Below, one piece after another: positions 28,860 through 31,379 of a stretch of DNA of 64,000 nucleotides. Positions within the stretch are counted from its first letter, which is position 1; each line of letters starts with the position of its first letter. The notes under the pieces were generated by a model. It ran no database searches. It worked only from the letters and a program-made list of their open reading frames with translations, and was not told the DNA's origin. The stretch is from Pandoraea oxalativorans (GTDB taxonomy: Bacteria > Pseudomonadota > Gammaproteobacteria > Burkholderiales > Burkholderiaceae), in contig NZ_CP011253.3 in the NCBI RefSeq assembly GCF_000972785.3, forward strand, positions 5,022,001-5,086,000, given 5' to 3'. The translations under genes and the position numbers were made by a program.

Positions 28860-28976
28860 TCAATAGCGATAGCAGCAACGGTGCCCGTAATAACCCCCTC
28901 CGTAATAGGGCCGTTCCGGAACAACAACGCATCCGGCAAGCGTGATAGCAAGCAATGCAGCGACGACTAACTTCAT
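28860..28976 (-). CDS. 38-residue lipoprotein
   Basis: Very short gene found by reading the minus strand: M-K-L-V-V-A-A-L-L-A-I-T-L-A-G-C, then V-V-V-P-E-R-P-Y-Y-G-G-G-Y-Y-G and a Cys/Tyr-rich end. The lipobox L-A-G-C puts the lipidated cysteine at residue 16, leaving a 23-residue mature peptide rich in Tyr and Gly. GGAG lies eight bases before the ATG at 28976. The +2 residue is Val, which favours the outer membrane. No function is known. The good ribosome site and perfect signal sequence argue for a real gene. Confidence 0.75.
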   Translation of the reverse strand: MKLVVAALLAITLAGCVVVPERPYYGGGYYGHRCCYRY

Positions 28977-29089
28977 GATCTGGCTCCACAGATAAGAACG
29001 CGAATCCGTTCGCTTTCTTTATATCGCCGCCCCTGTAGGAAGCCCATCACGCGTCTGTAAGCCGTGTAAGCGAAGGTTGCCAAACCGGG

Positions 29090-29126
29090 AAAGTGTCGCA
29101 CTTTGTTACGTAACGCACGCTGCGTG
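29090..29126. promoter_or_regulatory. Cluster of three palindromes, enhancer candidates
   Basis: Three adjacent perfect inverted repeats: AAAGTG-TCG-CACTTT (29090-29104), GTTACGTAAC (29105-29114) and CACGC-T-GCGTG (29116-29126). The cluster sits about 85-120 bp upstream of the sigma-54 promoter, where activators of that sigma factor bind. Also TGTTACG (29104-29110) is mirrored by CGTAACA (29131-29137). Binding is inferred. Confidence 0.55.
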
Positions 29127-29208
29127 TGGCCGTAACATCGAACCGCCATCGATGTCGTGACTTTCCGAAAACCCAGCAACGACGCGGGTTTCACGAGGCC
29201 CCGTTGTC

Positions 29209-29224
29209 TGGCACGACGCTTGCA
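29209..29224 (+). promoter_or_regulatory. Sigma-54 (RpoN) promoter, -24/-12
   Basis: TGGCACG-N4-TTGCA, an exact match to the sigma-54 consensus with correct spacing between GG and GC. The start of transcription is expected near 29235. Confidence 0.85.
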
Positions 29225-29234
29225 TAGTGATAAG

Positions 29235-29317
29235 CGTCGCCCTTTCAATTGCCCCGAAGAGTGCGGCTTTGACTCAAACCCTCCTCCCGTTGCAGATATG
29301 GGAGGAGGCTTTTTTTC
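29235..29317 (+). ncRNA. Predicted sigma-54-dependent small RNA or attenuated leader
   Basis: Inferred from a consensus -24/-12 promoter followed about 55 bp later by a strong terminator, giving a transcript near 83 nt. No ribosome site with a start codon and a closed short frame lies within it. The terminator's left arm is CCTCCTCCC, complementary to Shine-Dalgarno sequences, though it would be paired in the folded RNA. The other reading is a leader of the chemosensory operon that begins 364 bp further on, with the terminator acting as an attenuator. Confidence 0.6.
29280..29317 (+). terminator. Strong intrinsic terminator
   Basis: Nine-base-pair GC-rich stem CCTCCTCCC/GGGAGGAGG with an 11-nt loop and seven T residues at 29311-29317. 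No annotated gene ends before it on this strand, which is why a short non-coding transcript is proposed. Confidence 0.92.
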
Positions 29318-29681
29318 AGATCTTTCCGATCTTTGCGGAGCCCAATCTCCGACATACGATCGCGACATTTTCCTGCACCGCGCATGTGCGGGCACTTAGC
29401 TCTACTTATTTCATTTGTGCGTTTGAAATGTATCGACGCTATAACAGCGTCGACTTCCTTTTTGTTTCCTTTATCTTTAAAGCCTTAATGGACGCGGCTT
29501 TCGAAGCGATTCTCATCGATATCGGCATAGACCACATGCGGGTACGCACCGATCTAAAGTTGACTCCTTCGCTGTCGTAATCGCGTCTATAGAGGACTGC
29601 GTATTCAATTGGGGGAACGCAGCATCCCTTTCGTGACGGCCGCACGACACGCGCCGGGGCAAGCGTATCAGGGGGAAAGTC
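29318..29681 (+). promoter_or_regulatory. Upstream region of the chemosensory operon
   Basis: No gene is supported here. It holds a hairpin CGACGCT-ATAAC-AGCGTCG (29434-29452) followed by a pyrimidine-rich tract, and a promoter-like TAAAGTTGACT (29555-29565) without a clean -10 at standard spacing. GGGGGAAAG just before 29682 is the ribosome site of the receptor gene. Base composition is lower in GC than the flanking genes. Confidence 0.45.
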
Positions 29682-31379
29682 ATGGAAATCGCCACGCCTG
29701 AATTCCAAATGGAACAACAGGAACTACAGGCCGTCACCGCCGCGCTCAACCGCGTGCAGGCCGTCATCGAGTTTGATTTGCAGGGGCGCGTTCTTCACGC
29801 CAACGAGAACTTCCTGCACACCCTCGGCTACCGTCTCGATGAGATTCAGGGCCAGCATCACCGCATGTTCTGCGAGCCGGAGTACACCGCCTCGAACGCA
29901 TATCGCGAATTCTGGGCAAAGCTCGGTCGCGGTGACTTCGATTCCGGCGAGTACAAGCGTCTGGGCAAAGGCGGACGCGAAGTGTGGATCCGCGCGTCGT
30001 ACAACCCGGTCTTCGACCCGAACGGCGTGCCGTACAAGGTGATCAAGTTCGCCACCGATGTCACAGCCGACCGCACGCGTCAGGCCGAATACGAAGGCAA
30101 GGTTCGCGCAATGGACATCGCGCAGGCCGTCATCGAGTTCAATCTCGACGGCACGGTCATCACGGCCAACGACAACTTCCTGAAAACGCTGGGCTACTCG
30201 CTCGACGACGTTCGCGGCAAACATCACCGCATGTTCTGTGAGGCCGATTACGTCGCCGGCAACGAGTATCGCGACTTCTGGGCCAAGCTCAATCGCGGCG
30301 AATTCGGTGCGGGGCGCTACAAGCGTCTCGGGCGTGGCGGGCGCGAAATCTGGATTCAGGCGACGTACAACCCGATCCTCGACGCGAATGGCCGCCCCTA
30401 CAAGGTCGTGAAGTTCGCCACCGACATCACCCAGCAGGTCGAACTCGAAGCGAGCGTGAAGCGGCGGGCGGAAGACGATCAGCGCAAAGTCGCGCTGCTG
30501 CTCGACACCGTCAACCGCGCGGCTGCGGGCGACCTGACCGGCGCCATTGCGGTGAACGGCACCGATCCCATCGATCAGTTGGCCGACGGCATTCGCCACA
30601 TGATGGACGACCTGCGTGGCGTGATCGGCAAGGTCGTCAACTCGGCAGGCGAGTTTTCCGGTGCATCGCGCGACATCGCAGACCGCGCGAATACGGTGGC
30701 CACCGGTGCGCAGGCGCTGGGCGCGACGGTCGAAGAGATGAATGCATCCATCGAGGAACTGACGGCGTCGATCAACTCGATTGCCGACAACACCAAGGGT
30801 GCCGACCAACTCGCCAAGTCGACGCAGCAGGAAGCCGAAACCGGCTCACGCGCCATTGCCCGTTCCATCGAAGCGATGGAACTGATCAACAAGTCGTCGG
30901 AAGACATCAGCGAGATCGTGAAAGTGATCGGCGAGATTGCCGGGCAGACGAACCTGCTCGCCTTCAATGCCGCGATCGAAGCGGCGCGCGCGGGCGAACA
31001 CGGCCTCGGCTTCTCGGTCGTGGCAGACGAAGTCCGCAAGCTCGCCGAGCGCTCGTCGCAGGCCACCAAGGAAATCTCAAAGCTCATCAACGAGTCGACC
31101 AAGCGCGTGTCGCAGGGCAGCGACGTGTCGCGTCAGGCGGGTGAAGCGTTCGAGAAGATCGTGAGCGGTGTGTCGCGCACCACGCAGGCCATCTCCGAAA
31201 TTTCGTGTGCCGCCGAAGAACAGCTCGTCGCCGCGCGCGAAGTGAGTCTCGCGATTCAGCACGTGGCGGAAGAGACGGAGAAATCGGCGGGCGCGTGCGA
31301 AACCATCGCCCAGGCGACGACCGGTCTCAATCAGGGCGCAGAGGAACTGGATCGCACCGTATCGAGGTTCAAGGTGTAG
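29682..31379 (+). CDS. Soluble methyl-accepting chemotaxis protein with two PAS domains
   Basis: Chemoreceptor of 565 residues with no membrane segment. Two PAS domains in tandem (about residues 12-125 and 135-247) are clearly related to each other, each with the motifs [11 protein letters not shown] or [22 protein letters not shown] and G-R-E-V/I-W-I. The signalling domain (about 300-565) carries the invariant hairpin tip [20 protein letters not shown] followed by [23 protein letters not shown]. There is no C-terminal pentapeptide for CheR/CheB docking. The layout matches BdlA/Aer-like cytosolic receptors that sense redox or bound ligands. It is first in an operon with cheR, cheD and a triple CheW. 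Confidence 0.93.

Follow-up and report, generated by a model that had tools for sequence, protein, structure and literature searches.

The window, a stretch of 64,000 nucleotides of the Pandoraea oxalativorans genome (NZ_CP011253.3, positions 5,022,001 to 5,086,000 of the forward strand), contains a gap of 705 bp between a minus-strand gene for a 38-residue lipoprotein-like product and a plus-strand gene for a chemotaxis receptor. The gap harbors an exact sigma-54 -24/-12 sequence, TGGCACGACGCTTGCA, followed after 55 bp by a terminator that consists of the stem-loop CCTCCTCCCGTTGCAGATATGGGAGGAGG (29280-29308), a C and seven Ts (29310-29316). When the start is set about 12 nt past the GC of the -12 box, an RNA of about 83 nt is predicted. 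A previous sequence-only reading had proposed a consensus TGGCACG-N4-TTGCA promoter, a strong terminator with seven Ts about 55 bp further on, and an RNA near 83 nt; the exact promoter match, the 11-pair stem with its seven Ts, the distance and the length all bear this out. Open reading frames that span the promoter-RNA stretch do exist in the ORF list. Reading frames across the RNA are not maintained in the sequences of relatives, which were read by eye, and a short peptide encoded within the RNA was rejected because its frame and stop vary among them. The comparison of genomes and the pair support described below favor a sigma-54-type promoter in front of a short, independently terminated, non-coding RNA. 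This part of the sequence-only reading stands, while its anti-Shine-Dalgarno arm does not (see below). Coordinates are collected in the table. Downstream of the small RNA (29433-29453) there is another inverted repeat, TCGACGCTATAACAGCGTCGA, with a T-rich stretch after it.

Features of the small-RNA locus (positions in the window) and of the half-site cluster next to the Tad/Flp locus
Feature	Position	Strand	Basis or remark
38-residue lipoprotein-like gene	28860-28976	-	
Putative activator site 1: GTTACGTAAC, a palindrome of two overlapping half-sites	29105-29114	.	exact match; identity 0.98
Putative activator site 2, CCGTAACATCG	29130-29140	.	identity 0.89; lost in decayed L026
Sigma-54 promoter, -24 TGGCACG / -12 TTGCA	29209-29224	+	sequence; aligned loci; G028 copy
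Predicted small RNA, about 83 nt	29235-29317	+	start inferred from -12 box; covariance model R1 matches
5' hairpin of the RNA	29236-29267	+	folds, pair support, identity 0.92
Hairpin loop CAATTGCCCCGA, proposed pairing seed	29246-29257	+	11 of 12 columns invariant, 25 loci
Intrinsic terminator, 11-pair stem and T-tract; 5' arm CCTCCTCCC	29280-29316	+	
Chemotaxis receptor gene, two PAS stretches	29682-31379	+	
Half-site cluster and sigma-54-like site	L115 18731-19998 (G000:C1:3242731-3243998)		before small ORF and lipoprotein gene

By itself, the promoter motif is only partly beyond chance and would be weak evidence. With up to two mismatches, it occurs 9 times in the window compared to 8.5 occurrences expected from shuffles, and the only exact match is the one described here. 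Genome-wide, TGGCAYGNNNNTTGCW was found 17 times versus 3 times for the reversed control. We regard the comparison across genomes as decisive for the locus being real.

Sequence conservation, expressed as mean pairwise identity over 25 loci (the decayed locus L026 and the G028 copy are not part of this set), follows the predicted elements. Identity is 0.98 in the block of the first putative activator site and 0.89 in the second half-site, with 0.49 between them, and falls to 0.38 in the spacer after the activator sites and 0.37 in the promoter-proximal spacer. It reaches 0.91 in the -24 box and 0.88 in the -12 box, which flank four nucleotides with an identity of 0.53. Between the -12 box and the RNA start it is 0.44, and it rises again at 29236, the expected 5' end of an RNA started by sigma-54. 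The 5' hairpin (0.92, its loop 0.98), the linker (0.69) and the terminator stem (0.86) follow. The -24/-12 boxes, the 5' hairpin and the terminator are conserved islands amid drifting DNA. Of the 26 aligned loci, 22 keep the pattern TGGCAYG-N4-TTGC, and 25, all except the decayed L026, keep TGGCA-N6-TTGC. The arrangement taken to define a sigma-54 small RNA, GG at -24 and GC at -12 with 10 bp between them, is shown by 25 of the 26 aligned loci and by the G028 copy.

Two further conserved stretches were read as lying outside the RNA unit. The first, with an identity of 0.98 at 29062-29084, belongs to a near-invariant block with the direct repeats TGTAAGCCG/TGTAAGCGA (29053-29084), located upstream of the minus-strand lipoprotein-like gene, of which it is perhaps the operator. 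The second, AACCCARTAACGACGCGGGTTT (29171-29192, identity 0.70), lies between the activator sites and the promoter.

The chemotaxis receptor gene is encoded on the same strand, begins about 365 bp downstream of the RNA and is present in all 26 aligned loci, as might be expected if the RNA were an attenuated leader of this gene and a signal permitted read-through of the terminator. However, identity declines to 0.44 straight past the terminator, and a separate conserved promoter-like block, which we take to resemble a sigma-28 promoter, immediately precedes the receptor gene. Because the gene has this block of its own, we consider attenuation very improbable.

The predicted fold consists of the 5' hairpin, the linker and the terminator. 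Its energy of -29.1 kcal/mol was not equaled by any of 200 shuffled sequences, and the RNAs of five relatives adopt a like fold. The stability of the 5' hairpin alone is unremarkable, as 63 of 200 shuffles were equally good. Among 21 distinct sequences, standard pairs occupy 99.0% of the pair cells, compared to 52-73% in slid controls. Two-sided changes were found at 3 of the 20 pairs (one in the hairpin, two among the 11 of the terminator), a number that is not above chance, since 129 of 500 letter shuffles reach it; the count of cells with a two-sided change and the covariation score both exceeded 500 of 500 shuffles. We conclude that the comparison supports the RNA structure, and that the evidence from two-sided changes is modest because the sequences are closely related. 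The loop motif CAANTGCCCCGA is nearly invariant across loci, and the loop region TCAANTGCCCCGAA is fixed save for one column. Dimerization by kissing loops through the loop palindrome CAATTG was rejected because the palindrome is broken in four loci, reading CAAATG in L012, L014 and L018, and CAACTG in L022.

Of 32 Pandoraea genomes, 26 have the unit of promoter, RNA and terminator intact and at the same place; it is decayed in one and absent from five (G018, G021, G023, G025 and G030). The sequence-only reading had suggested such a conservation search for the promoter-terminator pair. A DNA search with 29190-29320 detected the locus in 26 of the 32 genomes of the genus, and gave zero matches in the remaining 267 of the 299 family genomes examined. 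Covariance model R1 retrieved 25 strong copies in the genus (at least 91.8 bits) and a weaker copy in G028 (L104, 48.6 bits), which has the activator sites and the sigma-54 promoter as well. Part of the RNA sequence is kept at L026 in G029, where neither the promoter nor the terminator nor the second activator half-site survives; we count this locus as a decayed copy. A search with a promoter-plus-loop DNA pattern returned named records from Pandoraea in 12 of 14 cases, and two Erythrobacteraceae records matched the pattern. Outside the genus, the R1 search, which used Infernal's stricter filters, gave matches at E ≤ 0.1 in 9 genomes (20.8 to 39.3 bits). The best two of these nine (L105 and L106) were rejected: they have no sigma-54 site upstream and resemble terminators at gene ends. 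In summary, neither the DNA search nor R1, with the best two of nine matches read, yielded a copy of the RNA outside Pandoraea. The unit appears to be an independent small-RNA gene conserved in this genus, as the explanation that we consider likely overall would have it.

The sequence-only reading had attributed an anti-Shine-Dalgarno function to CCTCCTCCC, the 5' arm of the terminator. In this case the RNA would work by pairing of its pyrimidine-rich arm CCUCCUCCC with Shine-Dalgarno sequences. The arm is indeed complementary to ribosome binding sites of the GGAGG type, and seeds of the kind of CCUCCUCCC are proven for NfeR1, an RNA of alpha-proteobacteria, according to the available part of the paper (PMC10746234). 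However, the arm is paired in every fold that we obtained, and it varies between species: CCTCCTCCC gives way to CCCCTTCCC in L023-L025, to CCTCCCCCC in L015 and to other forms besides, among them that of L104, the copy in G028. When the 5' arm changes, the partner arm changes along with it, suggesting selection for the terminator, which alone would account for the variation. The loop is steadier across loci than the arm. An anti-Shine-Dalgarno role of CCTCCTCCC is therefore not supported by the aligned sequences, and we regard a mode of action through this arm as unlikely. The hairpin loop would be a better pairing seed, and we lean towards an RNA that acts in trans through the exposed loop CAANUGCCCCGA.

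Searches for mRNA partners of the loop gave no convincing target, either by strings in start regions of three genomes or by duplex energies. The string TTCGGGGCA occurred at most 25 nt before an ATG in 22, 25 and 22 cases in G000, G016 and G020, compared to 11, 2 and 5 cases for the reversed control; judged by these counts, the string is not rare. Of the 69 matches, 41 were read, and no match combined a credible gene start with conservation across the three genomes. Strings shared between genomes that were inspected closer lay within genes or opposite a gene start on the antisense strand, or had no credible start, and were rejected. The duplex energies of the RNA, the loop and the linker with 11 chosen start regions fell inside the range of 60 shuffles each, in a test that disregards accessibility.

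The aligned loci revealed a predicted upstream activator site, GTTACG/CGTAAC, that was new relative to the sequence-only reading. Of the 26 aligned loci, 22 have the palindrome GTTACGTAAC and the remaining 4 have GTTACGTTAC; CCGTAAC of the second site is likewise kept in 22. Neighboring putative sites are about 22 bp apart. The half-site pair is not over-represented in the genome, because GTTACG-N4..34-CGTAAC occurs at 6 distinct places, below the 27 of the reversed control. At 3 of the 6 places the half-sites are followed, on their own strand, by a sigma-54 sequence, with 12 of 12 sigma-54 letters matched at this RNA, 11 of 12 at C1:4690127 and 10 of 12 at C1:3242980. The converse check for half-sites at genomic sigma-54 loci covered 15 of 17 (all but L063 and L064).

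The promoter at C1:4690127 (L149, G000:C1:4688547-4691641) precedes the gene of a 70-residue protein without a match in Pfam or NCBIfam; AATCAANNNNTTAA at this promoter resembles the IHF consensus. At C1:3242980, the sigma-54-like site lies 190-249 bp past a cluster of seven GTTAC/GTAAC half-sites. Downstream of it come a small ORF and the gene for a collagen-like lipoprotein (Collagen_mid), adjoining a Tad/Flp pilus locus that was confirmed by Pfam (Flp_Fap, RcpC, Tad, T2SSE and T2SSF).

Both associations recur in the genus. The pattern CGTAAC-N56..86-TGGCAY-N5-TTGC gave 53 matches in 26 of 32 genomes versus 8 for the reversed control. Assigned by hand from the printed strings, 27 matches were the RNA promoter (25 genomes, two counted twice), 24 the promoter of the 70-residue protein and 2 lay elsewhere; G010 was missed by the spaced pattern because its half-site differs. 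By this pattern, the promoter of the 70-residue protein is present in 24 of 32 genomes. For 18 of these 24 matches the surroundings were read, and the printed frame was the 70-residue protein in 15. The Tad-adjacent cluster with a downstream sigma-54-like sequence was found in all seven genomes read (G000 and the chosen G012, G013, G016, G021, G028 and G030), including G030 and G021, both of which are without the RNA; that the gene downstream of it is the one for the lipoprotein was read from G000 alone. The half-sites common to the RNA, the gene of the 70-residue protein and the Tad/Flp-adjacent lipoprotein gene point to surface adhesion, and they make it probable that the RNA is part of a surface-adhesion program. 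The signals named in the sequence-only reading, nitrogen, carbon or motility, were a guess.

Which activator might bind the half-sites? The genome contains 14 strong matches to sigma-54 activators. The gene of one of them, P0001, lies within the Tad locus at a distance of about 14 kb from the third half-site place. According to Pfam, P0001 comprises Sigma54_activat and HTH_8 and no N-terminal domain. Another, P0002, contains a VpsR domain. Each of the two proteins occurs in 31 of the 32 genomes. Four of the five genomes without the RNA (all but G018) possess both, which counts against the explanation preferred below; presence and absence are uninformative for choosing the activator. G018, which is without the RNA, P0001 and P0002, is listed in the same genus and 100% complete, yet measures 1.2 Mb; we take it to be a strongly reduced or misplaced genome.

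We tentatively propose P0001, favored because of its position alone, as the candidate activator of the RNA promoter. It is a serious possibility that the RNA is real and is turned on by another activator (for example P0002, NtrC or a CbrB-like protein), and that the link to adhesion is wrong. The 14 activator matches offer alternatives, P0002 is as widespread as P0001, and the letters of the half-sites are those of the Pseudomonas CbrB sites TGTTAC and GTAACA (PMC6296734, available part). A VpsR-like activator with mapped sites, BerB, is known from Burkholderia (PMC5552954, in the portion available). Against such alternatives, the third half-site promoter adjoins the Tad locus with the P0001 gene, and does so even in G030 and G021, where the RNA is missing; moreover, CbrAB is called exclusive to Pseudomonads in the accessible text of PMC6296734.

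The explanation that we prefer is an activator-dependent sigma-54 small-RNA gene whose product acts through its loop and is linked to adhesion. An enhancer-binding activator would occupy the GTTACG/CGTAAC sites, which lie some 75-105 bp upstream, and make sigma-54 polymerase start at about 29235. Transcription would end at the terminator, giving the RNA of about 83 nt, which would most likely pair with mRNAs in trans via the loop. The terminator, together with the U-tail present at the 3' end, may serve as an Hfq-type 3' end. The activator of the RNA would probably turn on the gene of the 70-residue protein and the Tad/Flp-adjacent collagen-like lipoprotein gene as well. We have good confidence in this scheme as a whole. 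The promoter, the half-sites, the RNA structure, the terminator, the conservation and the sharing of half-sites are properties read from the DNA, from which we infer transcription, its dependence on sigma-54, which activator is involved, the action in trans through the loop and a role of Hfq.

A more specific version, which we offer as rather speculative, is a P0001 regulon in which the lipoprotein, the 70-residue protein and the RNA are switched on as cells get ready to attach, with the loop silencing mRNAs of the motile state. If this version is true, the activator, the signal and the RNA are all undescribed.

Small RNAs with a sigma-54 promoter of their own are few. CrcZ and Qrr1 are known examples of sigma-54-driven regulatory RNAs, and the Pandoraea RNA looks like an undescribed one. 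The sequence-only reading had likewise known of no description, in agreement with our searches of the open-access literature, in which no sigma-54-driven small RNA of Pandoraea was found, and of Rfam. At the gathering score, Rfam 15 identified only two tRNAs in the window and no family match for the RNA (including bdhR1, RF02278, and Qrr); at E ≤ 10 there were only two matches, both far below the cut-off and both to eukaryotic families. CrcZ and CrcY carry A-rich motifs of the AANAANAA type that titrate Hfq/Crc, and no such motif occurs in the sequence of the Pandoraea RNA.

Other small RNAs share traits with the one described here. NcS25, an 84-nt RNA of Burkholderia, Paraburkholderia and Pandoraea and the subject of the relevant paper found on small RNAs of Pandoraea, is similar in length and genera, but is encoded at another locus, beside a porin gene, and the available part of its description reports no sigma-54-like motif upstream (PMC10117139). 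CJnc230 is processed from an RpoN-dependent mRNA (PMC11187230, available part). The alpha-r14 (cuckoo) RNAs form three hairpins, each with an unpaired CCUCCUCCC, as far as the accessible portion of PMC10746234 describes them. The Pandoraea RNA has CCUCCUCCC in common with NfeR1 and the alpha-r14 RNAs, but as a single copy that varies between loci and takes part in the terminator stem, which sets it apart from the alpha-r14 group.

Further parallels are with sigma-54-driven RNAs. Qrr1 of Vibrio fischeri depends on sigma-54 and the activators LuxO and SypG, and is turned on by the activator of an aggregation pathway (PMC10162802, in the part available). The proposed adhesion link of the Pandoraea RNA would parallel this control, although the RNA has no Rfam match, belongs to another bacterial family and would have other activators. 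CrcZ and CrcY of Pseudomonas depend on sigma-54 and the activator CbrB, with TGTTAC/GTAACA half-sites whose neighbors are 20-25 bp apart (PMC6296734, available text). The half-sites upstream of the Pandoraea RNA have these letters and a similar distance of about 22 bp, but continue as GTTACG/CGTAAC. CbrB-like half-sites precede a predicted small RNA in a group said to lack CbrAB. For the Pandoraea RNA there are a promoter and putative activator sites, a candidate activator and a regulon that probably comprises three transcripts.
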